Source of the DNA: Pseudanabaena sp. PCC 7367
GTDB taxonomy: Bacteria > Cyanobacteriota > Cyanobacteriia > Pseudanabaenales > Pseudanabaenaceae
Length of the DNA stretch: 64,000 nucleotides
Assembly (NCBI RefSeq): GCF_000317065.1
Contig: NC_019701.1
Location: 3,978,001-4,042,000 of the forward strand
Direction: 5' to 3'
In this document: piece after piece, positions 7,400 to 39,512 of the stretch
Numbering within the stretch: position 1 is the first letter of the stretch
How the letters are laid out: every line of letters begins with the position of its first letter
Notes under the pieces: generated by a model
What the model saw: the letters and a program-made list of their open reading frames with translations, nothing else
Databases searched by the model: none
What the model was told of the DNA's origin: nothing
Position numbers and translations under genes: made by a program

Positions 7400-7448
7400 A
7401 ATCGGAGCGGCGGGATTCGAACCCACGACCCCCACTACCCCAAAGTGG
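7400..7448. other. left attachment site: truncated copy of the 3' part of tRNA-Pro
   Basis: These 49 bases are identical to 39374-39422. On the minus strand they contain tRNA-Pro nucleotides 28-74 (anticodon stem-loop, variable loop, T arm, 3' acceptor strand), plus two bases beyond the end. The match stops at base 7449, and no 5' half of a tRNA follows, so this is a remnant and not a working tRNA. It is the expected scar of site-specific integration. Confidence 0.9.
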
Positions 7449-7535: not shown

Positions 7536-7556
7536 TGGCAAGAAAACTGGCAAGAT
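7536..7556 (+). promoter_or_regulatory. putative integrase arm-binding site, left end
   Basis: The 21-bp sequence here is repeated exactly and in the same orientation at 39283-39303. It consists of two copies of TGGCAAGA spaced 12 bp apart. It begins 88 bp inside the left attachment repeat and runs into the first two bases of the integrase start codon. Arm-type sites for tyrosine integrases are short repeats flanking the core in this way. Overlap with the integrase start would also let the integrase repress its own gene. Confidence 0.65.
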
Positions 7557-8712
7557 GAAAAATAAACGAGGAACTGTTTCAATCCTTAATCAAGACGATC
7601 GGATCAGACTAAGGTGGAGTTACCAGGGCAAAAGATACAACCTTGGATTGGGTCTAGCCCACAATAAACAGAATATGCTTCTGGCAAAGCAAACCGCGAT
7701 CGCCATTGAGCAGGATATGCTGACTGATAATTTTGACTACATACTCGATCGCTACAAACTGAGTCCACCAAATGACCCTAAAAGTGGGAGTAACCAGCTA
7801 GAAGCCCAGGATCAATTGAACATACTTGAAATATGGGATAGGTGGGTTGATTCACTTTCGCTGCCTGAGAGAACTAGAGCAAACCATTATCAACTGGTTA
7901 GAAAAATGCTGGAGCGACATGTTCCAACCATCAAAAATGCAAGTAAATGGTATGAACAACATAATCATCTAGCTGATTTGACCTACAACCAACGCTTAAC
8001 TTACCTGAACTCATGCTTCGAGTGGGCAGTTTTTGAGGGTCTTACCACTACTAATCCATTCAGGCGGGTGAAGCGTCGTAAGGTAGCTAAATCCGTTCTC
8101 AGGCCATTTTCAACTGCAGAGGTAGCACTGATTATTGAAGCCTTTAAAAGCAACAAGTATTGCCCACCTAATTCTAGATATTTGCATAGCCACTATGCAG
8201 ACTATGTTGAGTTTTTGCTTTTAACCGGATGCAGACCATCAGAGGCTATTGGATTACAGCGCAAGCATATCAACCTGGATCGTAATGAAATAGTCGTTTG
8301 TTCAGTTTTAGCCAGGGGCGATCATGGTGGCAGTAGTTCAGCGAGGCGGGTAAGGAAGGAAACTAAGACTGGCTCGATTAGATATCTGACTATGACAAAT
8401 AGGCTTAGACAGATCATTGAAGCTAGATGCCACGGTTTAAGTGCCGAAGAGTTAGTATTTACTTCACCAACTGGTTTAGCGATCGACGATCGTAATTTTC
8501 TGCGCAGGCAGTGGAAGACAGTGCTTAACGGATTAGGTATTGAATATCGCAAGCCCTATACAACCAGGCACACAATGGCATCAATGGCGATCGAGCAGGG
8601 TATCCCATTGACAGGAGTTGCTTATTTGCTTGGGCATTCAGACACCAAAATGGTGATCGAAACCTACGGCCACATGATCAACCGTCCTAGCCTGCCTGAG
8701 ATAGATATTTAA
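7555..8712 (+). CDS. int: tyrosine recombinase / integrase of the island
   Basis: The 385-residue protein has an N-terminal arm-type DNA-binding region (about 1-60), a core-binding domain (about 90-180) and a catalytic domain (about 185-380). Catalytic residues can be read: Arg in LLTGCRPSEAIGLQ, Lys in KETKTGSIRYL, the box II segment YTTRHTMASMAIEQG with its Arg, His in YLLGHSD, and the nucleophile Tyr in VIETYGHM. The first His of box II is Tyr, a known variation. It probably recombines the tRNA-Pro attachment sites. The start codon overlaps the left arm-like repeat. The frame is intact, so the enzyme may be active. Confidence 0.93.
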   Translation: MKNKRGTVSILNQDDRIRLRWSYQGKRYNLGLGLAHNKQNMLLAKQTAIAIEQDMLTDNFDYILDRYKLSPPNDPKSGSNQLEAQDQLNILEIWDRWVDSLSLPERTRANHYQLVRKMLERHVPTIKNASKWYEQHNHLADLTYNQRLTYLNSCFEWAVFEGLTTTNPFRRVKRRKVAKSVLRPFSTAEVALIIEAFKSNKYCPPNSRYLHSHYADYVEFLLLTGCRPSEAIGLQRKHINLDRNEIVVCSVLARGDHGGSSSARRVRKETKTGSIRYLTMTNRLRQIIEARCHGLSAEELVFTSPTGLAIDDRNFLRRQWKTVLNGLGIEYRKPYTTRHTMASMAIEQGIPLTGVAYLLGHSDTKMVIETYGHMINRPSLPEIDI

Positions 8713-19235: not shown

Positions 19236-19298
19236 TACTTACTCTCAACACACCTCTATCAACCTAGGGCAAACTATATTTTATTGCAAGTGATTCTT

Positions 19299-19460: not shown

Positions 19461-19479
19461 GAGAATGATTAGTATTAAA
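19461..19479. promoter_or_regulatory. second Fur-like box upstream of the first TonB receptor
   Basis: GAGAATGATTAGTATTAAA matches 13 of 19 Fur-box positions and includes the TGAGAATGA half-site that recurs through the cassette. It lies between the tonB stop and the receptor start, about 160 bp farther upstream than the first box. Confidence 0.5.
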
Positions 19480-19542
19480 TAGGATTATGCTTAACTACAT
19501 GCCGACATTGCTCAATCCTTAAACGGCTAACGACTACTTACT

Positions 19543-21654: not shown

Positions 21655-22045
21655 GGAAGAGGATTCGCCCCTAGAGCTAAATATTCTGCCGATGATCGAT
21701 GTGATTTTTTCGATCCTGGCGATGTTCATTATTACTTCTATTTTTCTAACTAGAATTGATAGCCTGCCCGTAAATTTACCCAAAGCGAATTCCGCCACAC
21801 CACAAAAAAGCACGCCTGTAACGCTAACTATTAATCCAGTGGGAGCGATCGCTTTTAATCGCCAACCAGTTGAATTAGAGAATCTTGAACCACTTATTCT
21901 CCAGCAGCAGCAACTCAATCCCGAACTGGTGGTAGTTGTTAATGCTGATGAACAGGTGAATCATGGCCGTGTGGTGGAAGTGATGGATTTATTGCGGCAG
22001 GTGGAAGGAGTGAAGCTGGCGATCGCCACTCAAAAGAAGCAGTAA
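21641..22045 (+). CDS. exbD: ExbD motor subunit
   Basis: The 134-residue protein has one membrane helix (about 14-38) preceded by the conserved LELNILPMIDVIFSILAMF, in which Asp24 is the proton-carrying residue of ExbD/TolR proteins. A small periplasmic domain follows, ending in VMDLLRQVEGVKLAIATQ. It overlaps exbB by 14 bp and is 59 bp from the first permease gene. Confidence 0.95.
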   Translation: MRLFEEEDSPLELNILPMIDVIFSILAMFIITSIFLTRIDSLPVNLPKANSATPQKSTPVTLTINPVGAIAFNRQPVELENLEPLILQQQQLNPELVVVVNADEQVNHGRVVEVMDLLRQVEGVKLAIATQKKQ

Positions 22046-22104
22046 CTAGCCTTAACTAAAGAATTCTAGATTCAATTCAACAGCCAGGACAGCCAAGTAT
22101 AGAT

Positions 22105-23118: not shown

Positions 23119-23122
23119 GACA

Positions 23123-24187
23123 ATGAATCAGAATTCCCCCTCTAGTAATTCCAGTAATTGGTATATTCTGCGACTCCATCGTTTACCCATTTCCTTCTGG
23201 GTCGATCGCCGTGTGCCCGTGGTGATCCTTGGCCTCGGCCTGTGTATTATCGCTACCGTTCTGATCAGTATCAGTCAGGGAGAATATGCGATTCCCATTC
23301 TTGATACGGCAAAAGTAATTTTAGGATTAGAGACCAGCAATCCTGATTATGTTTTTGTGGTTAATACCCTGCGCTTACCCAGAACAATTACCGCCTGCCT
23401 GGTGGGGATGGCTCTGGCGATCGCTGGTACGATTACCCAGAGTATTACTCGTAATCCCCTGGCTGCCCCTGGCATCATTGGCGTTAATGCTGGTGCTTCC
23501 CTTGCTGCTGTCAGCGTGATTATTCTGTTCCCCAGTTTACCCGTGGCGGTACTACCGATCGCAGCATTTGGCGGCGCAGCGATCGTGGCGGTGGCAATTT
23601 ACCTACTAGCCTGGGATGGGGGCACTTCACCAGTGCGATTGGTGCTGGTGGGGATTGGCTTTAGCTTCGTTGCTGGCGCTCTCACTAATTTAATGACCAC
23701 CTTTGGCAATATCAATAGCGTTTCTCAAGCACTGGTATGGCTGGCTGGTAGTGTCTATGGACGCAGTTGGGCGCAGGTATATGCGATGCTACCCTGGTTG
23801 GTGGTATTTGGCTTGATTGCCCTGCTCATGACCAGAGAACTGAATAATTTACACCTGGGTGATGATATGGCGATCGGGCTGGGTAGTCGTCTGGAGGTGC
23901 ATCGCGGCCTGTTGCTACTGAGTGGTCTGGCACTGGCCGGTTCAGCGGTAGCCACAGCAGGAAACATTGGTTTTGTCGGTCTGATGGCTCCCCATTTGGC
24001 ACGGCGGCTGGTTGGTGCCTCCCATCAAAGCCTATTGCCGATCGCAGCTTTACTGGGATGTTTACTGGTGGCAGTGGCCGACCTGCTGGCGAGGCTAGCC
24101 TTTGCACCGATCGAGTTGCCCTGTGGCATCATTACCGCTGCTGTAGGCGCACCCTATTTTGTCTATCTGTTGATCTGGAGTCGTTAA
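23123..24187 (+). CDS. fecD: ferric-siderophore ABC permease, FecCD family (second)
   Basis: The 354-residue paralogue of the preceding permease has about 10 helices: [57 protein letters not shown], and a C-terminal [20 protein letters not shown]. An N-terminal polar extension of about 25 residues precedes the first helix. The stop overlaps the start of the ATPase gene (TAATG), a sign of coupled translation of the transporter. Confidence 0.92.
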
Positions 24188-25044
24188 TGGATCTTCATTC
24201 TGCTAATTCTAGTTATTCCGAATATGTACCGCGTTTAGAAGCCAGGAAACTATCTCTGGCATACGATTGCACTATAATTCTAGAGCGACTGAACCTGGCA
24301 ATTCATGCCGATCGGATCACAGTACTGGTGGGGCCCAATGGTTGTGGTAAGTCAACCCTGTTGCGTGGTCTGGCCAGATTAATGAAGCCCAATCATGGCC
24401 AGGTTTATCTAGACGGTAGGGCAATCGCTAAATTACCCACCAAGGCAGTGGCGAAGCGATTGGGTATTTTGCCGCAAAGCCCAGTAGCACCAGAGGGCTT
24501 AACCGTAAAAGATCTGGTAGCCCAGGGGCGTTATCCCCACCAGAACTGGTTTCAGCAATGGTCGATCGAAGATGAACAACAGGTAGAACGCGCCTTAGCC
24601 TTAACCGAAATGCGGGAATTTACCCACCGGCCGATCGATAGCCTGTCCGGTGGTCAGCGCCAACGCGCCTGGATTGCTATGACCCTGGCACAGAACACCA
24701 ATACGCTCTTGCTAGATGAACCAACCACATTCCTGGATCTAGCTCATCAGATCGAGATTCTTGACCTCTTGCAAGAGCTAAATTACCAGGAAGGTCGCAC
24801 GATCGTAATGGTATTACATGATTTGAATCAAGCCTGTCGCTATGCCGATGACCTGGTGGCGATCAAACAGGGGCATATTTATAACCAGGGCTCCCCCGAA
24901 GCAATTATGACTGAGGCACTCCTTGCTGATGTATTTGGGATTAATTGCAAGATTATGGCCGATCCAGTGGCGGGTACACCGATGTGTATCCCGATCGGTA
25001 AAACCACCAAAATCAAATCCGAAGCGGCTCAGGATGTGGGCTAG
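24187..25044 (+). CDS. fecE: ferric-siderophore ABC transporter ATPase
   Basis: 285 residues from the ATG that overlaps the permease stop. A longer frame exists upstream, but it would lie inside the permease gene. Motifs: Walker [10 protein letters not shown]-loop in LGILPQS, signature LSGGQRQR, Walker B TLLLDEPT, and H-loop [10 protein letters not shown]. The layout is that of FecE/FhuC-type ATPases (about 255-285 residues). It powers the FecCD-type permeases. The gene is convergent with the sucrase/ferredoxin-like gene, 38 bp away. Confidence 0.94.
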
Positions 25045-25082
25045 TTTTTCAACTTTTCATTTGTCAGGCAATTTTTCTGGTG

Positions 25083-26081
25083 CTAGGCGACTCGCTCCAG
25101 GGAACTGACCACATATTGATTCACCGAAACAACATCTGCACCGGAATTAATTACCGTATCCACAGTGTGGCTCAGCTCCACTTTTGCAATATAAGCTCCT
25201 TTATCATTCCCATCGGGCGATTCATACTCTAGTTTCACCTCGGCCCATTCCACATTTTTGCTATCCTGCTCTGGCTCTTGTTTAATTACCTGACCAATCT
25301 TTTTATAGTCCAACCATTGCCAGCCATGCTGCATCCACACTTCGCGCTCTACGAACTGTGCAAGCCTGGGTAAACCCGACCAACCGCGATAGAAACGGCG
25401 CAATCCGCTTACAGAACGATCACGATTGACCAGATTCCCTAATATCTCTGGTTCCAAATGTCCCCAGAATTGCCCAGTGGGTAAGTCTACTAAAGTTGGC
25501 GCAAACTGATGGCCACCAAAATGGGAACAACGCCAGACCCGTAGTTTCCCATCTGAATTAGCTGCATATTCCTTTCGCAATTGTTGATAAATCGGTTGGC
25601 CAAACCGGGCACAGGCCACATCCACATTCCCGTGGGTGCAAACCATAATATCGCGGATATCGTTACTTTCCTGGCGATAGGAATCAAATTGGCTGAGTTG
25701 CTCTCGATCGAGGAATAGAGAAATTGCTAAGTCCTTAATTTGTTCCGGCTGAATCAAAAATTCCTGCTTTTCAAAATGGGCAAACATGGCATCGGGCTTT
25801 TGATAAAACATCACTCTGGTAGCATCAGGTGATGAATATTCCCGATCGGGCGTAATCAACATCGGTACAACATGAATATGAAGATCATGCAGTTGATGAA
25901 AAAAATCATGCATCGGCGCAAGGACTGGGTCAGTCTGGAACCGTTCCATTGTCCAGGGCTGGGGCAATTCCATAACTAACCAGTAGTCAGTGAATCTAGC
26001 ACTACCGATCGGGTCTTCACCATTGTTTTTCGAGATGGTGGAGCAAAACTTGCAATCGGTCAGTGGGTTTGCAGTGGTCAT
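25083..26081 (-). CDS. sucrase/ferredoxin-like protein, possible ferric-siderophore reductase
   Basis: The 332-residue protein fits the Suc_Fer-like family (PF06999), a thioredoxin-like ferredoxin fold. Visible features are an N-terminal CKFC pair (about 11-14), CTHGNVDVACARFG (about 152-165) and WRCSHFGGHQFAPTLVDLP (about 183-201), where conserved Cys and His residues could bind a 2Fe-2S cluster. Such proteins often sit in cyanobacterial siderophore-uptake clusters, and a role in reducing ferric siderophore in the cytoplasm is plausible. That role is inference from context. The gene is divergent from the AraC-type regulator. Confidence 0.8.
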   Translation of the reverse strand: MTTANPLTDCKFCSTISKNNGEDPIGSARFTDYWLVMELPQPWTMERFQTDPVLAPMHDFFHQLHDLHIHVVPMLITPDREYSSPDATRVMFYQKPDAMFAHFEKQEFLIQPEQIKDLAISLFLDREQLSQFDSYRQESNDIRDIMVCTHGNVDVACARFGQPIYQQLRKEYAANSDGKLRVWRCSHFGGHQFAPTLVDLPTGQFWGHLEPEILGNLVNRDRSVSGLRRFYRGWSGLPRLAQFVEREVWMQHGWQWLDYKKIGQVIKQEPEQDSKNVEWAEVKLEYESPDGNDKGAYIAKVELSHTVDTVINSGADVVSVNQYVVSSLERVA

Positions 26082-26213
26082 AGTCGGTAATGGCTAGAAC
26101 TGGTGGGACAATTGCTCGAGTTACGCTCTGGTGTGTGGCAATGGGCATGGTGTGCGCTGGCAAACCCTATGATCGGGCATATTTAGACAATTAGATTTCA
26201 ACTATACCTTATA

Positions 26214-26236
26214 CTATTGAGAAAGACTATCAATAG
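26214..26236. promoter_or_regulatory. inverted repeat upstream of the AraC-type regulator
   Basis: CTATTGA and TCAATAG arms of 7 bp flank 9 bp. It includes TTGAGAAAGA, a variant of the TTGAGAATGA half-site seen elsewhere in the cassette. It lies in the divergent region between the sucrase/ferredoxin-like gene and the regulator gene, so it could control both. Fur, or the regulator itself, is the likely binder. Confidence 0.45.
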
Positions 26237-26345
26237 ATTATAAAGTTATATATTCAGATGTTCTTGAAGTGTTGCAATGCTCGAAAACCGAACAGCAGTA
26301 ATTTGTCAATCTGCGATCGCTAAACTGTTTAGCAGAATTTAGACT

Positions 26346-27476
26346 ATGGCGATCACCCATGTAATTAAGGATGCTAAGGATCTGGCCGCCCTATTTGATA
26401 TTTACCAGGCCAGGGACGGCTGGGCAGATTTGCAGTTATTCCATTGCCATGAAGATGATTTTATTATCCGCATTCCGCCATACCTGGGACGCGGCTATCG
26501 TCAGTATGTCCAGATTCGTGAAGGGTTAATCCTGGCGATCAACAACTTCGAGTTTTATGATGACTTCACGATCGAATTTGATTATGTGGAGGCCTTTAAA
26601 CCAGTAATTCCCGCTGGCCCCAATTTAGTGATTGATTTTTTCATCAGCCAAGCTCACAAAAACAATCATAAATACGCTTCTGTCTCAGCAACTCTGTCTA
26701 GCTTCACTGACCGAGAAGCAAATGTAGAACGCTTGGTGCAATATTCAAAAGGGAATAAAACCTTTGAGATCGAACTAACGGTTTCAGGCGCTTTACTGGA
26801 AGAGATTCTGACTGAGTTGGGTATGGAACTATTATGGCCAGAGGGCTTTGACCAGAAAGAATTTTCTTTAAAAAGTTTGCAACTAAGTCAGCAGCGATCG
26901 CCACTAATAAATCAACCAAGCAACTTACTTCAATGGCGATTGCACTCCACCTTGGGAATGCAGCAGGTGATTCAGCAGATTTTAGATTGTCCCCACCAGG
27001 GCACGTCACGCCGGTTTTATCTAGAATCGAAAGCGCTAGAGCTGATTACTCAATGGCTAGAGCAGACAATTTATTTGTTTAAACAGCAGAACGAATCAAC
27101 GGAGGCCAACCCTGCGATTAATTTGGATGCGATCGAGCAAATTTATGCGGCGCGGCAAATTCTGGTCAGTCAATTTGTGAATCCTCCTTCTTTAAACGAG
27201 TTAGCACGTCAGGTAGGATTGAACCGCCGCAAGCTGAGCGAGGGATTTCAGCAACTGTTTAAGGCCACACCATTTGTCTATTTACAACATTATCGACTTG
27301 AACAGGCTCAACAGTTATTACACCAGCCAGACATTAAAATCGCAGCAGTAGCTAAACAACTGGGCTATCGCAATCCCAGTAAATTTACGATCGCTTTCAA
27401 GAAGCAATTCGGGGTAAACCCCAAGACCTATCAGCAGCAATACCTAGCTAAAAACTATGTCAGTGAGCGCCAGTAA
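26346..27476 (+). CDS. AraC/PchR-type transcriptional regulator
   Basis: 376 residues. The N-terminal sensing region (about 1-260) has a segment like YVQIREGLILAINNFEFYDDF, similar in style to PchR-type siderophore sensors. The C terminus (about 275-372) holds the two helix-turn-helices of AraC proteins: LNELARQVGLNRRKLSEGFQ and IAAVAKQLGYRNPSKFTIAF, then FKKQFGVNPKTYQQQ. PchR-type regulators turn on receptor genes when ferric siderophore reaches the cytoplasm. The second receptor gene starts 200 bp downstream on the same strand and is a likely target. Confidence 0.88.
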   Translation: MAITHVIKDAKDLAALFDIYQARDGWADLQLFHCHEDDFIIRIPPYLGRGYRQYVQIREGLILAINNFEFYDDFTIEFDYVEAFKPVIPAGPNLVIDFFISQAHKNNHKYASVSATLSSFTDREANVERLVQYSKGNKTFEIELTVSGALLEEILTELGMELLWPEGFDQKEFSLKSLQLSQQRSPLINQPSNLLQWRLHSTLGMQQVIQQILDCPHQGTSRRFYLESKALELITQWLEQTIYLFKQQNESTEANPAINLDAIEQIYAARQILVSQFVNPPSLNELARQVGLNRRKLSEGFQQLFKATPFVYLQHYRLEQAQQLLHQPDIKIAAVAKQLGYRNPSKFTIAFKKQFGVNPKTYQQQYLAKNYVSERQ

Positions 27477-27572
27477 GTAATCTGAACCATAAAAGTGCAT
27501 TCAGGGCTAAAAATAACTGCCATCTGGGGCTAAAAATGGCTGGTACTTAAAATGGGGTGATCGTAATCTAGG

Positions 27573-27590
27573 TTATTGAGAATGACTTTA
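27573..27590. promoter_or_regulatory. Fur-like half-site upstream of the second TonB receptor
   Basis: TTATTGAGAATGACTTTA carries the same TATTGAGAATGA core as the box at 19461, but its second half is weaker. It lies 86 bp upstream of the receptor start. Confidence 0.4.
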
Positions 27591-27676
27591 ATTTAATGGC
27601 TTAACTTCCTGCAACTAAATCATATTTTTGATCAGCGCTTGAAATGGGGCAGGGAAAAGTCAGAAGGTGAGGAGAT

Positions 27677-30239
27677 ATGAAGCTTAATAACTATTCACTG
27701 AGTAATTTGTTGCTGGCTAAAACATTGGCCCCGATCGCGGTGGTAATAACTATCAGCACTACATTTCCTGGGTCGGTAACCGCAAACGAGATTGAGGCAA
27801 ACCAGGCTGAATCGATCGCCGCCCTGGAAGAATCAGCAATCAGCGTAGATGAATGGGTAAATGCGATTGCCCAGGCGATGGTACAGATAACTGGTGTAGA
27901 GTTAACTGAGACGGAAGCAGGGTTTAGAAGTATTGCTGGAAACTGGTACTGAAGCGATCGTCCAGCCAACTACGCAGATTGTCGATAATGCCCTGGTTGC
28001 CGATATTCCCAATGCGATCCTGGTACTTGAGGATGGTCAGGAATTTGAGGCGATCGAACCAGCGGCAGGCATTGATGCGGTACTGGTCTATAACCTTCCC
28101 GATGGCCAGGTCAGGATTGAAATTATTGGCCTTGATGCAGCGCCAGATGTGGAAATCGCTATTGCTGAGCAAGGTCTATTGCTAAGTGTGTTGCCAGGGG
28201 AAGCGATCGACTCAGATATTGAACTGGTGGTCACTGCTGAGCCAGAATCGCGCTACGCCAAGACTGATGTATCAACTGCCACCCGTACTGATACGCCACT
28301 GCGGGATATCCCCCAATCGATTCAGGTGATTCCTAAGGAGGTCCTAGAAGATCAGCAAATTATTCAGCTCAGAGATGCTCTCCGCAATGTCAGTGGCGTA
28401 CAACAGTCAATCAATGATCCCAGGGGAACCCGATTTCAGATCAGGGGTTTTGACAGTGCTTCCATCCTGCGTGATGGCTTCCGGTCAACTAATGGGGGCA
28501 ATGGTAATACAATTCAAGAACTAGCAAATATTGAACGGATTGAAGTTCTAAAAGGACCGGCATCAGTTCTATCTGGAGCACTGGAGCCCGGTGGTGTAAT
28601 TAACCTAGTTACCGAAAAGCCTACCGTAGCTCCTTTTTATGAAATTGAGGCACTAATTGGCAATCGTAGCTTTATCAGCCCTAGCCTGGATATTTCAGGC
28701 CCATTAACCGAAAGTGGCAATATTAAGTATCGATTGAATACGCTATATCGCAACGAAGATAGCTTCCGTGATTTTAATGAGTCGATCGAGCGTTATTTCT
28801 TTGCTCCTACGATTAGCTGGCAGATGGGCGATCGCACCGACTTTAACTTTAGTTTTGAATATTTAAATGATGAAGCCCCGGCCGACTTTGGTCAACCGCT
28901 TATCAATGGTCAAATCCCCGATGCTCCACGGGAGCGGATTGCTGGTGAGCCTGACGATGTTATTAATGCCGAATATCGTCGCCTGGGGTATAACTTCGAA
29001 CATCGTTTCAGTGACAACTGGAAAATCCGTAACGCCTTTGCCTATACTCGTTATGATACTGCGTTTATCTCTGCCTTTCCGTTTCGCTCCGATCCAGAGA
29101 CAGGGGCACTTTTACGTTCCTTTATCTCACTGGATCAACCCAGTAGTACCTATGAAGTACAAACGAACGTAGTAGGAGAATTCTGGACAGGCTCGATCGC
29201 TCATAAGCTCTTGTTTGGGGTTGATTATTACCGCCGCGAGGATCTCAATGGCCTGGGGCGAGGTGATATAACTGCACTCACCCCTTTTGATTTTCTCAAT
29301 CCGGTGTATGGTCTGCCCCGCCCAGATTTCAATAATCAGCCGATCTTCTTTAATGGCGATTCAATTACTAAAGGTACTGGCATCTATTTGCAGGATCAAA
29401 TTGAAGTGCTGGATAATCTCAAGCTACTGCTGGGTTTCCGCTATGAAAATGTAGATCAAACTAACATCAGTAGACCTTCATTATTTAGCCCCGAAGCATC
29501 AGAAACTTCTCAAAGTGACGATGCTTTCAGCCCCCGTCTGGGAATTGTCTATCAACCGATCGAGCCCCTTTCCCTCTATGCCAGCTTTGGTCGATCGTTC
29601 TTTCCGAACACAGCCACGACGGTTGATGGCAGTATTTTAGAACCAGAGCGAGGTAGGCAATATGAAGTCGGTGCTAGAGCCGAGCTATACGATGGTAGGC
29701 TGATTGCAAACATCGCCTATTTCAATATTACAAAAAGTAATGTGGCTACACCTGACCCCGATTTCCCCATGTTTTCGATCGCCACCGGTGAGCAGCAGAG
29801 CAAGGGGATTGAGTTAGATGTGATCGGTGAACTATTACCAGGCTGGGATTTAATTGTTAACTACGCCTATACCGATGCCAAAATTACATCTGATAATACC
29901 GGTTTAGAGGGCAATCGCGTTTTTAATGTCCCTGAACACAGCTTCAACATCTGGACTACCTATGAAATTCAGCAGGGTACTCTGGGAGGGCTCAGTTTTG
30001 GGATTGGCTTTAATGCTGTGAGCGATCGAGAGGCGAATCAGGCTAATACTGGCACTGCACCGGGTTATTTCCTAACCAATGCCGCGATCGCCTACAAACG
30101 CAATAACTGGCGTGCGGCGATTAATTTCCGTAATCTGTTTGATGTTGACTATATCGAATCTACCGAAGGCCGTGCCCAGGCAGAAGTTAATCGAGGTGCT
30201 GGGTTTACCGTAATTGGTTCCGTTTCCTATGAGTTCTGA
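27677..30239 (+). pseudogene. TonB-dependent siderophore receptor (second copy), single-base frameshift
   Basis: Two overlapping frames (27677-27952 and 27933-30239) together encode one AMIN-plug-barrel receptor. The first gives the signal peptide and the start of the AMIN domain, ending in frame at ELTETEAGF. The second continues EVLLETGTEAIVQ through the plug (DIPQSIQVIPKEVLEDQQ, RIEVLKGPASVLSGALEPGG) to a terminal Phe in SVSYEF. Dropping the single A at 27926 joins them exactly into a product of about 853 residues. Everything else is intact, so this is either a recent mutation or a sequencing error. It is clearly homologous to the first receptor, pointing to duplication within the cassette. 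Genes for the lipoprotein and two MFS proteins follow on the same strand. Confidence 0.88.
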
Positions 30240-30276
30240 TTAATTCTAAGCAGATGCTTTATCTAGCCATAGTGTG

Positions 30277-31374
30277 ATGTTGAAACTTAAACGCATAGTC
30301 AGATATATATTATGCTCTAGCATGGTAATGCTCCTGGTAGTGAGTTGTCATCAGGCGACAGTGGAACAGGCAAACGATCCTGCGGTTGAACAAACAGCTT
30401 TAGATGGAGCGGTAGCCTGTCGGATGATTCAACATGATGTGGGAGAAACAGAGGTATGCGGCAAACCCCAGAAAATTGCGGTGCTGGGAAGTCATATTTT
30501 AGATTTACTGCTATCTCTGGGGCATCAACCGGCTGGCTATGCTGCACCAGTTGATCTCCTGGGTCTGGATCGTTATGACCAACCGGCTATGCAAATTCCC
30601 TATCTGGGCGATCGGATTACTACTCAACCAGTGAATATTGCTGCTGGTAGTTACCGCGAACCCAACCTGGAGCGATTGACTGTACTCAAGCCAGATTTAA
30701 TCATCGGCGAAGCTGGCGGAGGCGGAGAACAAGCCTATAATTTACTCAGCCAGATCGCCCCGACCTTGTTATGGGAAGGCAGGACTGCTCAGGGAAAGTG
30801 GCAGCAAACTATTAGAACTTTGGCGCTGGCTTTGGGAGATAAAGAAAGTGCCGATAAAGCGATCGCTACCTATGAAAAGCTCTTAACTGATGCCAAGCAA
30901 GAGTTTGCCGACGTAGCAGCGGAGCATCCTCAGATCCTGTTATTAGTGACCAATAATTTACAGGACACAATTGCTTTGATTGCGCAAAATACTTATCTAA
31001 GTAAACTTCTAACTGAAATTGGCTTTGAGTTGGTCACACTTCCCAGTGATTTACCTGTGAATGCACCAATATCTGTAGAAGCACTGCCCGATTTTGATCA
31101 GGCCGATACAATTATTATTCTTACTTACAACCTGGATATTGAAGACTTGTCAGCGGCAACCGATGAAAAAGCTACGGAAATAGTAGAAATGCACCAAGCT
31201 AAAGCGGCGAGGCAGAGTTGGGCAGATAACGCGATCGCTCAATCCCTTACTGCAAGCAAGGCGGGACGAGTGCATTTTGCTACCTATTACCTGTGGAATG
31301 GTTTAAATGGCCCAATTGGCACGGAACTGATCCTCGAACAAATGGGCGATTTCCTTTTGTCTGATTCAAGCTAG
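30277..31374 (+). CDS. iron-siderophore ABC transporter substrate-binding lipoprotein (second copy)
   Basis: 365 residues from the ATG (a GTG lies directly before it). The signal has lipobox LVVSC. The FecB-type fold includes CGKPQKIAVLGSHILDLLLSLGHQPAGY, LKPDLIIGEAGGGGEQAYNLL and VHFATYYLWNGLNGPIGTELILEQM. It parallels the binding protein at 15578, so each receptor has its own lipoprotein while a single permease/ATPase set is present. It starts 37 bp after the receptor stop and is probably in the same operon. Confidence 0.88.
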   Translation: MLKLKRIVRYILCSSMVMLLVVSCHQATVEQANDPAVEQTALDGAVACRMIQHDVGETEVCGKPQKIAVLGSHILDLLLSLGHQPAGYAAPVDLLGLDRYDQPAMQIPYLGDRITTQPVNIAAGSYREPNLERLTVLKPDLIIGEAGGGGEQAYNLLSQIAPTLLWEGRTAQGKWQQTIRTLALALGDKESADKAIATYEKLLTDAKQEFADVAAEHPQILLLVTNNLQDTIALIAQNTYLSKLLTEIGFELVTLPSDLPVNAPISVEALPDFDQADTIIILTYNLDIEDLSAATDEKATEIVEMHQAKAARQSWADNAIAQSLTASKAGRVHFATYYLWNGLNGPIGTELILEQMGDFLLSDSS

Positions 31375-31410
31375 CTGATTCACTTTTATTTATCCCTGAC
31401 AGCTAATTTA

Positions 31411-32703
31411 ATGCGAACTTTTTTAATCATCTGGGTGGGGCAATTTGTATCCTTGATTGGCTCGGAAATGACCAATTTTGGCATCACAATCTGGGCCTGG
31501 CAGGTAACTGGCCAAGCTACACCGTTGGCATTCATTCTGGTGGTGACCCAGTTACCCCGCTTGATTGTGTCGTTGTTTGCGGGGGTGTGGGTCGATCGCT
31601 TCGATCGTAAACAACTGATGATTCTGGGTGATCTGGTGGCAGGCATCTCCACCATTTTGATTCTGGGTTTATTTCTGACTGATAACCTACGCATCTGGCA
31701 TTTATACCTGAGTGGTGCGGTTAATGGTGTATTTGGCTATATCCAGGGATTGGCGCTCACAGCCTCCACTTCCTCGATTTTGCCCAAGCAATATTATGCC
31801 AGGGCTGCTGCCTTCAATTCAATTCAGATGTCAGGCACTTACATTATCGCGCCCACGATTGCTGGGGTTGCCTATGCCGCAATTGGGTTATCTGGCATCC
31901 TGAGCATTGATGTTATTACCTTCCTGGTGGCGATCGGCACCCTTAGCGCCGTATATATTCCCAGGCAGGTTCAGCCGGAAGCCAATGACCAGCCGGAGCA
32001 TATTCAATGGCAGGCGATCACCTTTGGTTTTAGCTACATCGCAGCGCGTTCAGGTTTGCTGGCGCTATTATGTTTCTGGCTAGTCAGCAATTTCTTTTCC
32101 AGTGCTAGCTTTGCGCTGCTGCCAGCGGTGATCCTGGCTCGGAATAACAACAACTCGGCGATCTGGGGCACTTTGTTTGCCACCTTTGGTCTTGGCGGTG
32201 TTTTGGGTGGTATCACCCTCAGCTTTTGGAAAGGCCCCCGCCGCATGGTTATTGGCATTCTCACCACGCTAGCGATCTGGAAAATCGGATTGGTCACCCT
32301 GGCGCTGGCCAAACATATCAGTGTGGAAATGTTGATCGCTTTTGTCTGTGGTTTCTGTTCGCCCTTTCCGCAAAGCTACAGCCAAGCGATCTGGATGGCG
32401 AAGGTAGAACCAGCGGTACAAGGACGGGTTTTTTCAACTCGTTTTTTATTAACTCAATTGGCCACGCCCTTAGGAGCGGCGATCGCTGGCCCTCTGGCGG
32501 ATTTTGTCTTTGAGCCCATGATTCATAGTGACCATCAATTGACTGGATTTTTGCAATTGCTCTTTGGTAATTTCAAGGGAGCCGGAATGGCCTTAGGCTT
32601 AGCTTTGTTCTCTGCCTGTGGCGTATTGTTTACCCTGTCAAGCTTTGGCATCCCCGCACTACGCAACTTAGAAACCAACCTACCTGACTACGATGCAACA
32701 TGA
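31411..32703 (+). CDS. MFS transporter, EntS/DHA3-like (first)
   Basis: The 430-residue protein has about 12 membrane helices. Family features are the N-terminal IWVGQFVSLIGSEMTNFGITIW and the loop 2-3 signature GVWVDRFDRKQLMILGD. DHA3-type MFS proteins next to siderophore systems often export siderophores or act on drugs. It lies 36 bp after the lipoprotein gene and 37 bp before a second MFS gene, so all are probably co-transcribed. A substrate cannot be read from sequence. Confidence 0.85.
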   Translation: MRTFLIIWVGQFVSLIGSEMTNFGITIWAWQVTGQATPLAFILVVTQLPRLIVSLFAGVWVDRFDRKQLMILGDLVAGISTILILGLFLTDNLRIWHLYLSGAVNGVFGYIQGLALTASTSSILPKQYYARAAAFNSIQMSGTYIIAPTIAGVAYAAIGLSGILSIDVITFLVAIGTLSAVYIPRQVQPEANDQPEHIQWQAITFGFSYIAARSGLLALLCFWLVSNFFSSASFALLPAVILARNNNNSAIWGTLFATFGLGGVLGGITLSFWKGPRRMVIGILTTLAIWKIGLVTLALAKHISVEMLIAFVCGFCSPFPQSYSQAIWMAKVEPAVQGRVFSTRFLLTQLATPLGAAIAGPLADFVFEPMIHSDHQLTGFLQLLFGNFKGAGMALGLALFSACGVLFTLSSFGIPALRNLETNLPDYDAT

Positions 32704-32740
32704 ACAAAAGTGAAGTGCCAATCCATTCATATACGCCATT

Positions 32741-34078
32741 ATGAAAAAACTTCCCAGATGGTTAGAAGGGCTAAATAATCCCATTTTTGCCCGCCTGTAT
32801 ACTGCCCAGACAATTAACTTGATTGGTGACTCACTTACCTGGCTGGGCTTAGCATTGCTGGCATTCCAGCTGGCTGGTGACCAATCCAGTGTAGTGCTAG
32901 CGACCGCCCTGACCATTCGCGTGGCCACATTCGTGATTCTCTCACCGATCGCTGGAGCCCTGGCCGATCGCATCGATCGTAAAAAACTAATGGCTACCTG
33001 TCATCTAATCCGCATGGGCATTGTTTGCCTGTATCCACTGGTAACTCAGGTCTGGCAAATCTATGGCATTGTGTTAGCACTGAATATTTGCTACGCCTGT
33101 TTTACGCCCACCTTCAAGGCGACAGTTTCGCTGGTTACCACGGTCGCCGAACGTCCCAGGGCGATCGCCCTCACCAGTGCCACCAGTCAATTACTGGGTG
33201 TATTGGGGCCTGGTCTGGCTGGTAGCATTGCGGCCTTGGTGGGGACGCGGCAAATCTTTTTCCTTGATAGTATTACGTTCTTGATCGCAGCAATTTTAAT
33301 CATGACGCTGCCGGGTCGGGTGATGGTTAATCAATCTGAGACAGCTACCCGCAGCCTGCGGCAAACCTGGAGCGATATGCGATCGGGTTCGGTGTGTTTA
33401 TGCCTCGACCCGTTGATTCGCTATGCCCTGGCATTGCAACTGGTAGCGGCGATCGCTGGAGCGCAGGTGTTAGTCAATACGGTTAGTCATGTGCAGAGCA
33501 GCTTGCAACTGGGCAAGGTGGAATATGGCTGGGTAATGGCTGCCTTTGGTATTGGCGCCACGATCGCAGCGGTGGGTCTTGGGAATGTGCATCGTAAAGT
33601 TAGTCCGATTTTGTTCACCAGCATCGGCGCAATTTTAATTACGTTGGCGCTACTACCCGCCCATCTGGTAGATATGCCAGGACTATTGCTGTTATGGGCG
33701 ATCGGTGGCACTGGCCAAACTCTGGTGAATGTGCCAACCCAGAACCTGATTGCAGAGCGGGTGGCAATCGAACTACAAGGCCGCGTATATGGAGCGCACT
33801 TCGCCTGGAGCCATCTCTGGTGGGCGATCGCCTATCCACTGGCAGGTTGGCTGGGCAGCAATTTCCCTGCCAACTACTTTTTCTACAGCAGCATTCTGGG
33901 TATTGCTCTGCTGTTATCTATCTATCTGGCTTTCCGGCCGCAACAGTTAACCAATATAGAAAATGGACAATGGCACGAACACGAGCATAGCCACGATGCC
34001 CACCATCAACATGAACAGGCCTTCAGCACCACCGCTCCTAATATCCACTCCCACTTACATTTTCACTATGCCCAGTAA
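32741..34078 (+). CDS. MFS transporter, EntS/DHA3-like (second), with His-rich C-terminal tail
   Basis: The 445-residue protein has about 12 helices, with LYTAQTINLIGDSLTWLGLAL at the first helix and AGALADRIDRKKLMATC in the loop 2-3 signature. The last ~36 residues are a cytoplasmic tail very rich in His (HEHEHSHDAHHQHEQ and HSHLHFHYAQ). Such tails bind divalent metals in ZIP and cation-diffusion proteins but are unusual in DHA3 MFS proteins. A metal-sensing or metal-buffering role is inference. The gene lies between the first MFS gene and the next membrane protein with short gaps. Confidence 0.85.
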   Translation: MKKLPRWLEGLNNPIFARLYTAQTINLIGDSLTWLGLALLAFQLAGDQSSVVLATALTIRVATFVILSPIAGALADRIDRKKLMATCHLIRMGIVCLYPLVTQVWQIYGIVLALNICYACFTPTFKATVSLVTTVAERPRAIALTSATSQLLGVLGPGLAGSIAALVGTRQIFFLDSITFLIAAILIMTLPGRVMVNQSETATRSLRQTWSDMRSGSVCLCLDPLIRYALALQLVAAIAGAQVLVNTVSHVQSSLQLGKVEYGWVMAAFGIGATIAAVGLGNVHRKVSPILFTSIGAILITLALLPAHLVDMPGLLLLWAIGGTGQTLVNVPTQNLIAERVAIELQGRVYGAHFAWSHLWWAIAYPLAGWLGSNFPANYFFYSSILGIALLLSIYLAFRPQQLTNIENGQWHEHEHSHDAHHQHEQAFSTTAPNIHSHLHFHYAQ

Positions 34079-34110
34079 AACTTAGTTAACGTAAGAGAAC
34101 AATCAGCTTT

Positions 34111-34845
34111 ATGAACTGGAGTATTTTTGTTGCTGCCTTAAGTAGCTCAGCGATCGAGTTTTTAGAGGTTGTTGCCATCGCCTATGCCATTGCCCACTCT
34201 GGGTATATACGTGAAGCGATCGCTGGCAGTTTGGCTGGACTGATCGGCATCGGCATTCTATCGGCCATATCCGGTAGTAGCCTGCAATTGGTGCCTTTAC
34301 AATGGCTGCAATTGTCGATCGGCGTGATTTTAGTCTGGTTTGGCTTTGGCTGGGTCAAGAAATCGATTACCAGACAGGTTAATCAAAAACGCGCTGGCTG
34401 GATTGGCGATGATGTATTGATTGCGGAAGGGATCGAAATAGCTGAGAATAGCTCAGGATTTAGATTTAGCTGGTTTAATTTTGTAATTATGACCAAAAGT
34501 GCAGCTCTCGAAGCGCTGGAGGTAGCGATCATTGTGGTAACACTGGGCCTTGCCTCCAGTGCCTGGACAGAAGCATTAACAGGTACGGCTCTGGCGCTGC
34601 TGCTTTCGTTATTGTTGGCAACTATCTTGCATCCCTATCTGGTTAAATTACCGGATGTATTAATTAAATTAGGTGCAGGGATTGTGATTTCCTCACTGGG
34701 CACGTTCTGGCTTGGTGAAGGGATGCAATTAACTTTACCACTGGGGGATTTTACGATCCTGGCGCTGATTGCGACCTATGCGATCGCTTCTATGCTCATA
34801 ATTTATATTGCGAGCAGCAGGAAGACTGAATCTGTAGCCAACTAG
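34111..34845 (+). CDS. membrane protein with duplicated Glu-containing helices (COG4280-like)
   Basis: The 244-residue integral membrane protein has about 6-7 helices and an internal repeat. SSSAIEFLEVVAIAYAIA in the first helix resembles KSAALEALEVAIIVVTLG in the middle, each with two intramembrane-adjacent Glu residues. The pattern recalls COG4280 membrane proteins and, more loosely, the duplicated REGLE motifs of Ftr1/EfeU iron permeases. Being the last gene of the receptor-lipoprotein-MFS run fits an iron-transport role. That role is inference; the family match is from layout. Confidence 0.65.
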   Translation: MNWSIFVAALSSSAIEFLEVVAIAYAIAHSGYIREAIAGSLAGLIGIGILSAISGSSLQLVPLQWLQLSIGVILVWFGFGWVKKSITRQVNQKRAGWIGDDVLIAEGIEIAENSSGFRFSWFNFVIMTKSAALEALEVAIIVVTLGLASSAWTEALTGTALALLLSLLLATILHPYLVKLPDVLIKLGAGIVISSLGTFWLGEGMQLTLPLGDFTILALIATYAIASMLIIYIASSRKTESVAN

Positions 34846-35163: not shown

Positions 35164-35712
35164 ATGTCTACAGCAACCACGCTGCGACAAGCGTTTAGGA
35201 CAGTTGCAGAAAACCCAGTTTTGTTAGAAACGTCGATCACTGAACCTGTCTGTGAAGGCATGAATATAGCAATGGCAAGTTTACAGGCTCTATATTTACA
35301 GTATGAGAAGCATCATTTTGTGGTGGAAGGTGCTGAATTCTATCAACTCCATGACTTCTTTGAGGATTGCTATAAGGAAGTAAAAGAGCATGTGCATGAT
35401 CTGGGCGAGCGCTTGAATGGTTTGGGTGGCATCCCAGCAGCCAGCTTTACCAAGTTAGCGGAGCTATGATGCTTTACCCCTGAAGAAGATGGTGCTTATT
35501 CCTGTCGTGCGATGCTGGAGCATGATCTAGTCGCTGAACAGGCAATGATTTCTTTATTGCGTAGATTGGCAGGACAGGCTGAAAGCTTAGGCGATCGTGC
35601 TACTCGTTACATGTACGAAAAGATGTTAATGGAAACAGAAGAGCGCACCTAGCATATTGCTCATTTCCTATCATCGGATACATTGGTGACACTGGGGTTC
35701 AGTAATAACTAG
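35164..35712 (+). pseudogene. dps: Dps/ferritin-like protein gene with two in-frame stops
   Basis: One frame runs from ATG 35164 to TAG 35710 and encodes a Dps-like protein of about 182 residues, interrupted by TGA at 35467 and TAG at 35650. Before the first stop: [40 protein letters not shown] and [20 protein letters not shown]. After it: [20 protein letters not shown], then [20 protein letters not shown]. After the second: HIAHFLSSDTLVTLG. No frameshift is needed. Dps proteins store iron and protect DNA from peroxide. The reading frame is preserved across both stops, so the gene was lost recently or the stops are sequence errors or recoded. It follows the iron cassette and has a Fur-like repeat upstream. 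Confidence 0.85.
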
Positions 35713-35800: not shown

Positions 35801-35831
35801 AACTTGTCATAATTCTTTGTTTCCGGCGATC

Positions 35832-35944
35832 ATGCCGCGGAATCACCACAGAACGCACAAAAAGGGGCGATCGGCGGCAACCTAAACCCTTACATAGAAG
35901 CACTTTTGCTCAAATGTTGAATACTATAGGGGATACCCCAGAAT
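35832..35944 (+). repeat. cargo-flanking imperfect direct repeat, right copy
   Basis: This is the partner of 15249-15361. Block 1 (35855-35880), a 23-base spacer and block 2 (35904-35944) keep the same spacing. The copy encodes QKGAIGGNLNPYIEALLLKC and then a stop, in a frame open from 35813 but without a good start. DNA similarity goes on past the stop through GGGGATACCCC. It sits just outside the cassette's terminator. Confidence 0.75.
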
Positions 35945-36546
35945 TGCCACAACATCCAATTTCGAGACTTAAACTAATCCCACCCGATCGCCGCAACAAA
36001 ACCTAAATCATTTCCGAGTATAGATATAAACCACTCATGGAGGCTTTAACCATAGCATTTTAACTATACATAAGCTTGAATATATGCAATTCAATCCATA
36101 GCATAGAGTTAAATCTATAATTATATATTTTATAGAAGCTGTAGTCTATTTTTATTGTGGCAACTAATGGCTGAAAAGAGCACTGGTCAAGCTTTGTAGG
36201 GATTATTTTTGCTGCGTTAATTTCCTCAAAGACGTTTTTTCTGTATATTTTGGCCAATCTCTAAAATTTCATGTTGTGGGCGATCTCAACTCTATTTTCT
36301 GGATTCTTCCCTCTAGGGTGACTTCCCCCACTAAAGTCCCAATTTCGAAAAACAAAAAAGCCCCCCTGGCCTAAGTTCTAAGCTTACTGCTTTAGAGCGA
36401 TGGTAACTACTGACGATCGATCGCCCCTTGCTGTCCAGACCACTCTGATTCAAATATGCCTTCGGCTTGATGAAAAGTAAGTGCAACGAGTAAGACTTAG
36501 ATGACTACTCACTGCACTCAAACATATATTCATCAAGGAGTGTAGC
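35945..36546. other. non-coding stretch with a leader hairpin
   Basis: About 600 bases without a supported gene. A 65-codon minus-strand frame (36060-36257) is AT-rich and shows nothing protein-like. A hairpin at 36480-36518 lies in the leader of the next gene. A C-rich run near 36361 follows an A-tract and may be the remains of a terminator. Confidence 0.5.
36480..36518 (+). promoter_or_regulatory. hairpin in the 5' leader of the next gene
   Basis: Two nested inverted repeats: AGTGCA/TGCACT outside and GAGTA/TACTC inside, separated by a symmetric AC/AC internal loop, with a 13-base terminal loop. It ends 29 bp before the ATG at 36547 and 17 bp before the AAGGAG ribosome-binding site. It could be a protein-binding or RNA-stability element. 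Confidence 0.45.
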
Positions 36547-37383: not shown

Positions 37384-38253
37384 ATGGCACGTACTAAGTT
37401 TGTACACAACCCAGAGATCGCCAAACAGAAGCAAGCTGATGCATTGACCAAGCTTGAGCTGGGTATCCAGGAGTTACTCAAGTCAGGTGATTGGCAGAAA
37501 TACCTGCGCACCCAGTCCAGGTTCCATAATTACTCGTTCAATAATTGCATGCTGATTATGGCTCAGTGCCCACATGCAACCAGGGTGGCTGGGTTTAGCA
37601 AATGGAAGCAACTAAGTCGCAGGGTCAAAAAGGGTGAGAAGGGTATCCGCATCCTGGCTCCGATCGTCCGTAAGCTTGATGATGACCTGGGCGATCCTGA
37701 TGCCAACACCAGGACATTAGTCGGATTCAGGACTGTTTCGGTATTCGATATATCACAGACTGAGGGCGAAGATTTACCCCAGGTTGATACATCTCTATCA
37801 GGCGGCGATCTGGGGCTGTGGGAGGCATTGGAGTCGTTCAGTATCAATAATGGTGTGCCGGTTCACCTTGAGGCCAGTTTAAGTGGTGCCAGGGGATATT
37901 GCCAGTATGACGACACTGGTAAGCCAATCAAGATCGCGGTTGATCCAATGCTCTCACCACTGCACAAAGCTAAGACCTTGGCTCACGAGATTGGTCATAG
38001 TTTGCTCCACAGTTGCACTGAATATTTGGGGCATTCGACCAGGTCTGAAAAGGAGTTAGAGGCTGAGTCGGTTGCTTTTGTTGTGCTTGACCATTTTGGA
38101 TTGGATACCAGTAATTACAGCTTTAGCTACATTTGCTCCTGGCAGCAGGGTGAAGATGCGATCGCTAACCTGAAGGCTTCGGGTCAGCGCATTCAGCAGG
38201 CAGCTAGCCAGATCATTGATTGGATTGAAGGCAGTTTTGCAACAGGGGCGTAG
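37384..38253 (+). CDS. ardC: ArdC-like antirestriction protein (ssDNA-binding domain plus zincin)
   Basis: 289 residues. The N-terminal domain (about 1-125) matches the ArdC N-terminal ssDNA-binding type (DUF1738 group): SRFHNYSFNNCMLIMAQCPH, VAGFSKWKQLSRRVKKGEKG and IRILAPI. The C-terminal domain is a zincin-like peptidase with AKTLAHEIGHSLLHS (HExxH) and a downstream Glu-rich ESVAFVVLDHFGLD. ArdC proteins, carried by plasmids and integrative elements, protect incoming DNA from restriction. AAGGAG precedes the ATG. The stop codon lies inside a hairpin that resembles tRNA-Pro. Confidence 0.85.
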   Translation: MARTKFVHNPEIAKQKQADALTKLELGIQELLKSGDWQKYLRTQSRFHNYSFNNCMLIMAQCPHATRVAGFSKWKQLSRRVKKGEKGIRILAPIVRKLDDDLGDPDANTRTLVGFRTVSVFDISQTEGEDLPQVDTSLSGGDLGLWEALESFSINNGVPVHLEASLSGARGYCQYDDTGKPIKIAVDPMLSPLHKAKTLAHEIGHSLLHSCTEYLGHSTRSEKELEAESVAFVVLDHFGLDTSNYSFSYICSWQQGEDAIANLKASGQRIQQAASQIIDWIEGSFATGA

Positions 38254-38285
38254 CGCAGCTTGGTAGCTACGCCCGCATGGGCGTA
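38245..38285 (+). repeat. tRNA-Pro-like hairpin repeat at the end of ardC
   Basis: Bases 38245-38267 are 23 nt identical to the 5' half of tRNA-Pro(GGG) (nucleotides 2-24), in the opposite orientation to the tRNA gene at 39376. The same bases form a perfect 9-bp stem (GGGCGTAGC / GCTACGCCC). The second arm can also pair with GGGCGTA downstream (7-bp stem, GCAT loop). It overlaps the stop of ardC. No T-run follows, so it is not a standard terminator. Confidence 0.6.
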
Positions 38286-38457: not shown

Positions 38458-38712
38458 ATGGCTGAAATCAAGCATTATAGAGAGTTCCTGCTCAATCAAG
38501 AGCGTGAAGTATTCCTAGCTGGTATGCGTGGGCAGATCCCGCTGGAGCAGGCAATGCATCAACTTGCTGAGACCAAATCTGCTCTGGCATCACTACGCGA
38601 TCGCCTGGTGATGCTCAATATCAGGCAACTCAAGCAGCTTGCTGTGGGTAGTGGCATCCGCTATTACTCAAGGCTGCGTAAGGCTGAGCTGATCGAGGCT
38701 TTGGCGGGCTAA
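38458..38712 (+). CDS. small protein with SAP/Rho-N-like C-terminal domain
   Basis: 84 residues from the ATG placed after GGAGG (an upstream in-frame start lacks a ribosome-binding site). The N-terminal half is helical (about 1-50). The C-terminal half reads LNIRQLKQLAVGSGIRYYSR then LRKAELIEAL, the pattern of SAP or Rho N-terminal-like domains, which bind nucleic acid. It probably supports DNA handling by the element. A hairpin terminator follows. Confidence 0.7.
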   Translation: MAEIKHYREFLLNQEREVFLAGMRGQIPLEQAMHQLAETKSALASLRDRLVMLNIRQLKQLAVGSGIRYYSRLRKAELIEALAG

Positions 38713-38790: not shown

Positions 38791-39252
38791 ATGTCCAAAT
38801 CTGCTCAGATTGTTCAAGCTACCTGTAAATATCCAACAGGTCAGCCCAGGCAGGGTAAGTATGGTGAGTATATTTCTGCTCTATTTAATGCCCCAGAATT
38901 CGGCGATGTCAGAATATTTGGCAACCCTGATGATGATCTGCTTAAGTCAATCAAGAAGGGGCAGAAGGTCTGGTTGGTTGATAATAACCGAGGTGGCTAT
39001 AAATTGGCTGCAGCTCCGGCTATGGATTCAAGCAATGGAAATGGCGATCGTTCAGCTCAACCACAATCCCCTGAACAGTCAGAGAATCGCAAGGGGCAGA
39101 TCCTAGCCTATATTCAATCCCACACCCGGTTATTCAAAACCTGCTACCTCAGGGCTAGTGAGGAGATGGCTGAGTTTGTCATGGATGAAGATAACTTACG
39201 CTGTATTGCTACGACGATCTATATCCAGACTCAGCGTAAATTTGATTTGTAA
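38791..39252 (+). CDS. island hypothetical protein, possibly nucleic-acid binding
   Basis: 153 residues from the ATG after AGGAGG (the longer frame starts 11 codons earlier with no site). The first half is beta-rich with basic and aromatic residues (ATCKYPTGQPRQGKYGEYIS, KKGQKVWLVDNNRGGYKLAA), somewhat like an OB-fold single-strand-binding domain. A Ser/Gln/Asn linker follows, then a helical tail. The family is not recognised. It is the last gene before the right attachment site. Confidence 0.6.
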   Translation: MSKSAQIVQATCKYPTGQPRQGKYGEYISALFNAPEFGDVRIFGNPDDDLLKSIKKGQKVWLVDNNRGGYKLAAAPAMDSSNGNGDRSAQPQSPEQSENRKGQILAYIQSHTRLFKTCYLRASEEMAEFVMDEDNLRCIATTIYIQTQRKFDL

Positions 39253-39282
39253 AACCCGATCAATCAAGGATAAAATCCTAAC

Positions 39283-39303
39283 TGGCAAGAAAACTGGCAA
39301 GAT
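39283..39303 (+). promoter_or_regulatory. putative integrase arm-binding site, right end
   Basis: An exact copy of 7536-7556 in the same orientation, containing TGGCAAGA twice with a 12-bp period. It lies 70 bp inside the right attachment repeat. In the excised circle this site and its left partner would flank the core on opposite sides. Confidence 0.65.
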
Positions 39304-39373: not shown

Positions 39374-39422
39374 AATCGGAGCGGCGGGATTCGAACCCAC
39401 GACCCCCACTACCCCAAAGTGG
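39374..39422. other. right attachment site within tRNA-Pro
   Basis: The right copy of the 49-bp repeat. It overlaps tRNA-Pro nucleotides 28-74. Identity with the left copy ends at 39423, inside the anticodon stem region, so crossover lies in the anticodon-loop to T-arm part of the gene. This is a common target for tyrosine integrases. Confidence 0.9.
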
Positions 39423-39449
39423 TGCGCTACCAAGCTGCGCTACGCCCCG
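39376..39449 (-). tRNA. tRNA-Pro (anticodon GGG)
   Basis: A 74-nt cloverleaf. Acceptor stem CGGGGCG / CGCTCCG (7 bp with one G-T pair) and discriminator A; D arm GCGC with loop AGCTTGGTA; anticodon stem CCACT / AGTGG with loop TTGGGGT, giving anticodon GGG; 5-base variable loop; T arm GTGGG-TTCGAAT-CCCGC. CCA is not encoded. The gene is intact although an island is inserted at its 3' side, because the element carries the matching sequence. Confidence 0.95.
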
Positions 39450-39512
39450 ATCGCAAAACTGCGAGTCTCATTCTAGCACCAACCTGCATCAGTAGGGTAC
39501 TATGACTAAAAA

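Follow-up and report, generated by a model that had tools for sequence, protein, structure and literature searches.

Integrative islands targeted to tRNA genes carry a tyrosine integrase next to a partial repeat of a tRNA gene, and cargo genes, and the intact tRNA gene is present at their other end. Tycheposons of Prochlorococcus are described as one cyanobacterial group of such tRNA-targeted islands with a tyrosine integrase (PMC10872708). A different kind of event, template switching or quasipalindrome mutation, is described as making perfect hairpins (PMC8794818).

Features of both systems meet in the window analyzed here, i.e., the whole stretch of 64,000 nucleotides from Pseudanabaena sp. 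PCC 7367. Its island is like the tRNA-targeted ones: a partial tRNA repeat with an adjacent tyrosine integrase lies at one end, the intact tRNA gene lies at the other, and cargo genes are present. The likeness concerns the host island only; an inverted 5′ piece of the tRNA gene at the end of the gene ardC lies outside the attachment scheme of such islands. This piece resembles the template-switch mutations described, in which sequence close by is copied as its reverse complement and a perfect stem arises in a single event (PMC8794818); the 3′ arm of the ardC hairpin is complementary to tRNA nucleotides 3-11 without any mismatch. Unlike in those mutations, the copied sequence here would be a tRNA gene approximately 1.2 kb away with its leader included, the 3′ end of a gene seems to have been remade, and the module concerned is now found in two islands.

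In all likelihood, part of a tRNA gene was captured here by the end of a mobile gene. It represents a compact case in which the start of a tRNA gene was apparently copied in inverted orientation into a neighboring mobile gene, altering the end of the gene and making a hairpin, and in which the captured piece would then have spread together with its module, reaching an island located at another tRNA. A literature search among open-licence papers gave no title that deals with a gene end carrying a tRNA leader together with the 5′ half. Pieces of tRNA genes inside islands need not be attachment sites, a point to consider when partial tRNA matches serve to define the borders of islands.

Extent and specificity of the tRNA-Pro match

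The 23-mer GGGGCGTAGCGCAGCTTGGTAGC at 38245-38267 (+) equals nucleotides 2-24 of tRNA-Pro(GGG) in inverted orientation with 0 mismatches and is found, again with 0 mismatches, in the tRNA gene itself at 39426-39448 (-). No further site with up to three mismatches was identified in the window, and 100 shuffles yielded zero matches. The inverted arms are 1158 nt apart. An exact 23-nt match to these nucleotides, in opposite orientation and 1.2 kb from the tRNA, had been reported in a preliminary description of this DNA, and both statements were confirmed. The numbering of nucleotides 2-24 assumes the Rfam bounds of the tRNA gene (Table 1); the bounds given by ARAGORN are 39375-39450.

The start at 38245 given in that description is real as the start of the exact match, and the true start of the feature is 38231, as the 13-nt 5′ leader of the tRNA is matched as well. 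The leader part of the copy (38231-38243) is identical to the leader GCAGTTTTGCGAT in 11 of 13 positions, and the mismatched position 38244 corresponds to tRNA nucleotide 1. Taken together, 38231-38267 and 39426-39462, the latter read on the minus strand, agree in 34 of 37 positions.

Table 1. Features of the tRNA-Pro island and of the inverted copy in the window.
Feature	Position	Strand	Basis or remark
Left attachment repeat	7400..7448	.	Exact 49-nt repeat
Arm-like direct repeats	7530-7556 and 39277-39303	.	96% over 27 nt; second near right end
Island tyrosine integrase	7555..8712	+	Pfam PF00589 E 4.7e-18, PF12167 E 8.2e-8
Module gene 1, 233 aa	36547..37248	+	Without Pfam match (E up to 0.1); also in sister
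ardC-like gene, 289 aa, ArdcN domain and M78-like zincin	37384..38253	+	Pfam
Inverted tRNA-Pro(GGG) copy	38231..38267	+	13-nt 5′ leader, nucleotide 1, nucleotides 2-24
9-bp stem	38246-38254 / 38266-38274	+	-18.7 kcal/mol scored alone
Alternative 7-bp stem	38268-38274 / 38279-38285	+	-12.1 kcal/mol scored alone
Palindrome TACGCCC-GCAT-GGGCGTA	38268..38285	+	2 good genome copies
Module gene 3, 84 aa from ATG, Rho_N/SAP-like C-terminus	38458..38712	+	Pfam PF07498 E 2e-7
Module gene 4, 153 aa from ATG	38791..39252	+	No Pfam match up to E 0.1
Right attachment repeat, tRNA nucleotides 28-74 plus 2	39374..39422	.	49 nt identical to left
tRNA-Pro(GGG), host gene, inferred source	39376..39449	-	Rfam
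tRNA-Pro 13-nt 5′ leader, second source part	39450..39462	-	Alignment with copy
Extended -10-like TGCTAGAAT	39470..39478	-	By eye

Within the window, the first ten bases of the leader, GCAGTTTTGC, have just two occurrences, one at the tRNA and one at the ardC copy. Both the leader and the copy are among the nine of 127,974 positions (both strands of the window) which match the 13-nt leader in at least 11 bases. The second half of the leader is GCGATCG, a very common word in this genome. The 16-mer CGCAGTTTTGCGATCG, searched with up to three mismatches, matched the genome 175 times in forward and 174 times in reverse orientation, versus 9 and 10 times for the reversed control. Since both ardC copies lack the GCGATCG word, the match rests on the other part of the leader. 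A chance origin is excluded for the tRNA part by the shuffles and is unlikely for the leader part in view of the position counts.

A second copy in a sister island

A sister island of 18.5 kb was identified in the same genome (G000:C2:1116608-1135134), which is bounded by a 65-nt repeat of tRNA-Gly(GCC). Both islands have a four-gene module in common, with 87-96% nucleotide identity by gene and 91% identity between the two ArdC proteins, and the homology of the islands stops right after the last module gene. Their integrases are 59% identical, so that the module would have moved between the islands after the divergence of the integrases. These comparisons indicate an exchange of the module between the islands with the tRNA-like stretch aboard.

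The second copy of the stretch (C2:1133957-1134011) lies directly behind the ardC gene of the sister island. The copy is therefore part of the shared module and older than the split of the module. Of the remnant of an earlier integration that had been considered, integration history in a loose sense remains; a scar of the present insertion does not, as the sister carries the copy too.

Within the 37 nt, the window and sister copies differ at three sites. At each of these the host has the base of one of the two copies, namely that of the sister at 38241 and that of the window copy at 38254 and 38259. Because of this, the two copies seem to be decaying from a host-like source. The sister copy agrees with the host leader in 12 of 13 positions (hand count).

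The 3′ end of ardC and its hairpins

The ardC product shows an ArdcN domain (E 2.5e-10) and a Peptidase_M78 domain (E 1.5e-5) in Pfam. Its last codons, GGC AGT TTT GCA ACA GGG GCG TAG, encode G-S-F-A-T-G-A-stop. The leader part of the copy lies inside the gene and codes for most of SFATGA, and the TAG stop corresponds to tRNA nucleotides 8-10 of the copy. The tRNA-like stretch thus apparently supplies the last residues of ArdC and its stop signal.

The nine bases GCTACGCCC comprise the last two bases of the copy and the next seven and are the exact reverse complement of GGGCGTAGC, i.e., of tRNA nucleotides 3-11. They close the 9-bp stem, one arm of which thus repeats, exactly and in reverse complement, sequence that was already present close by, as expected of template-switch hairpins. 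The left arm of the palindrome pairs back onto tRNA nucleotides 3-9 of the copy. A 9-bp stem and a second alternative stem had been described before and were found at 38246-38274 and 38268-38285. The wording "strong hairpin" holds for the existence of the 9-bp hairpin and not for its stability, which is unremarkable compared to shuffles. The 61-nt RNA fold has -20.9 kcal/mol versus -18 ± 2.3 kcal/mol for the shuffles (z = -1.25), with 18 of 200 shuffles equally stable. The stability of the fold is ordinary for its composition.

Between window and sister, eight pairs of the 9-bp stem are identical and one C-G pair is replaced by U-G, the 7-bp stem is also kept, and the remaining changes fall in loops or in the leader. 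The maintenance of both stems in both copies would suit a functional RNA element, i.e., a hairpin of tRNA-like or two-state type which spans the ardC stop, was selected after capture and controls decay, termination or translation of the ardC operon. However, the copied stretch is 91.9% identical between the islands, much like its surroundings (87.6% for ardC and 88.9% for the next intergenic part), so that this comparison, for which two copies are available, showed no conservation of the hairpin beyond that of its neighbors which would point to a function. A Rfam search up to E 5 gave no known RNA family at the hairpin, and the fold with its z of -1.25 speaks against such an element as well. 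An intrinsic terminator was rejected by inspection, as the G+C-rich stem is followed by TGGGCAAAGGGG and not by a T-run. A functional role of this kind is unlikely, and the captured stretch is probably a neutral scar; neutrality agrees with the data, and a lack of function is probable.

Proposed origin of the copied stretch

It is probable that 37 nt from the start of tRNA-Pro(GGG) were copied in inverted orientation and joined, a single time, to the 3′ end of ardC in an ancestor of the module, and that they then moved with it. The module would have been located at the tRNA-Pro(GGG) end of an island when the copying happened, by template switch or a similar inverted copying, with the source tRNA approximately 1.2 kb away. 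The fused leader and nucleotides 1-24 would have become the last codons SFATGA of ardC, with nucleotides 8-10 becoming the stop. Snap-back synthesis could then have added TACGCCC, which together with the preceding GC forms GCTACGCCC, and the addition of GCAT-GGGCGTA would have led to the two alternative hairpins. Later, the module with its hairpin would have moved between the tRNA-Pro island and the tRNA-Gly sister. The direction of copying, the template-switch mechanism and the order of these events are what we infer from the sequences. Observations which count against this proposal are the tail of a plasmid ArdC discussed below, which would suit a native ardC tail, the low match of the host tRNA-Pro(UGG) leader (see below), the commonness of the GCGATCG word of the leader, and positions 38243-38244, which differ from the host sequence in both ardC copies.

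Relatives of ardC were matched in 5 of 387 other genomes of the class, the best being 53% identical and the others short or weak. Among the matches listed, the closest named ArdC relatives are located on cyanobacterial plasmids, with 60.6% identity for the best one among the first 25 of 2273 matching records. The best relatives on viral contigs reach 44-46% (best 80 of 181), and one distant relative on a genome contig (L047) reaches 36%. The tRNA-like stretch is absent from five cyanobacterial plasmid relatives, taken from these 25 records, and from L047 by inspection, and the D-arm motif is absent from the five plasmid relatives and from 56 of the best 80 viral-contig relatives, the other 24 being the lowest-ranking, short, cut-off or weak matches. 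Tails were readable in 47 of these 56; for the other nine, the motif search took the end of the match, and not the stop codon, as its anchor. The absence in viral relatives says little, as most of them are distant. The hairpin is also absent from distant ardC relatives (by inspection).

The Gloeothece plasmid ArdC, the closest plasmid one among the matches listed, ends with SSYAVA, somewhat like SFATGA. Since a pattern of this type occurs in none of the 47 viral-contig tails, the likeness could be real homology. This would agree with the reverse direction, in which the ardC tail is native and acquired a tRNA 5′ half downstream, after which gene conversion between the inverted copies, which are just 1.2 kb apart, replaced the host leader by the sequence of the element. 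However, the host leader is closer to the distant sister copy (12/13) than to the neighboring one (11/13), and two events are required, which makes this direction quite unlikely.

The leaders of other tRNA-Pro genes were compared as well. In 27 other cyanobacterial tRNA-Pro genes (the 27 of 29 loci that passed the filter; 57 other genomes searched), the 5′ half is nearly identical, and the best leader match is 8/13. The leader of the host tRNA-Pro(UGG) also matches the GGG leader in 8 of 13 positions, a level reached by approximately 0.8% of the window positions. As one of the 27 other leaders reaches 8/13 too, the UGG leader hardly shows that the GGG leader is native to its tRNA.

The proposed inverted copying takes the gene as its source. 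The copied stretch begins 8 nt downstream of the extended -10-like TGCTAGAAT, and from promoter spacing rules the start of the tRNA transcript is expected about there. Because the copy starts near this position and continues through the leader as far as the D arm, the pre-tRNA transcript is conceivable as the source, with reverse transcription of a 5′ fragment, which would have become the end of a mobile gene, and the hairpin made by self-primed synthesis on the fold. The coincidence of the start positions is weak support for such a route, which would be distinctly improbable.

Attachment repeats of the islands

A direct repeat of the 3′ part of the tRNA gene was found at both ends of a 32-kb stretch of the window, with a tyrosine integrase next to the left repeat. 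This stretch can therefore be regarded as an integrated island targeted to a tRNA gene. In the sister island, arm-like repeats are located at the start of the integrase and near the tRNA, and the attachment repeat reaches back to nucleotide 14 of tRNA-Gly (nucleotides 14-72).

The inverted copy is a tRNA piece near the end of an integrase-bearing island, and the sister repeat extends further in 5′ direction than the tRNA-Pro repeat; both points would fit a remnant or decoy attachment site of an element using the tRNA-Pro 5′ half. However, both islands target the 3′ side of their tRNA, and the copy, with nucleotides 2-24, has zero overlap with nucleotides 28-74, which form the tRNA-Pro attachment repeat, so that a decoy site is unlikely. 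The copy is also present in the tRNA-Gly island, which has a different target. An attachment-site origin is thus very improbable, and the decoy site that was suggested earlier is disfavored by the lack of overlap and the copy in the tRNA-Gly island.

Second copies of the tRNA-Pro 3′ half were observed in several other genomes (e.g., G028:C10:84449-84500, G031:C33:34374-34422 and G037:C486:1512-1559), some of them approximately 10-13 kb from the gene. From these sequences, tRNA-Pro may be a recurrent target of islands.

Copies in the genome and in related genomes

In the 4.89-Mb genome, which consists of two contigs, the tRNA-like stretch and the palindrome are found together at two sites. The two good copies of the palindrome (0 and 1 mismatch) are both behind ardC, and its sole other separate site has three mismatches, the reversed control likewise yielding one. 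Besides the sister copy, the 23-mer has two more matches beyond the window, both of them genuine tRNA-Pro genes. A 30-base core of the stretch is present twice in its own genome. With up to three mismatches it was found in none of 387 other genomes of the class (the own genome being the one of 388), and in a set of 58 genomes of relatives it was found in the own genome only. A form of the core with two degenerate positions had no exact match in viral contigs. The stretch is neither a repeat family nor, in the genomes searched, a widespread feature of ardC.

The preliminary description had left room for a repeat family and proposed a genome count, in which dozens of palindrome copies in unrelated places would have made the tRNA match a coincidence; the two good copies behind ardC, with none in the 387 other genomes, do not bear this out. 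A dispersed palindromic repeat with a coincidental tRNA likeness, to which the palindromic form and the position adjoining a stop codon might point, can practically be dismissed given two good copies in 4.89 Mb, none in the 387 other class genomes and no exact match of the form with two degenerate positions in viral contigs.

Further gene content of the islands

In the tRNA-Pro island, the cargo at 15578-34845 resembles, going by ORF translations only, a set of genes for siderophores or the uptake of iron. It comprises binding proteins, TonB-dependent receptors, ExbB/ExbD-like proteins, two permeases, an ATPase and MFS exporters. A ferritin/Dps-like ORF at 35164-35469 (PF00210, E 8.1e-14) covers profile positions 4-69 of 142 and seems to be truncated. 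The ORF at 13342-15237 has a weak match to DNA polymerase B (E 1.7e-4, below the Pfam cut-off) and is perhaps a degraded mobile-element polymerase.

Furthermore, the regions 35825-36363 and 15250-15335, in which no module gene is listed, show approximately 73% identity to the sequence upstream of the module in the sister island. The second of them is located elsewhere in the tRNA-Pro island.

Finally, subunits resembling those of type I restriction-modification systems were observed in the sister island (L011:922-3596 and L061:6170-9139, from ORF translations only). These restriction-modification-like genes share the island with the anti-restriction-like ArdC.
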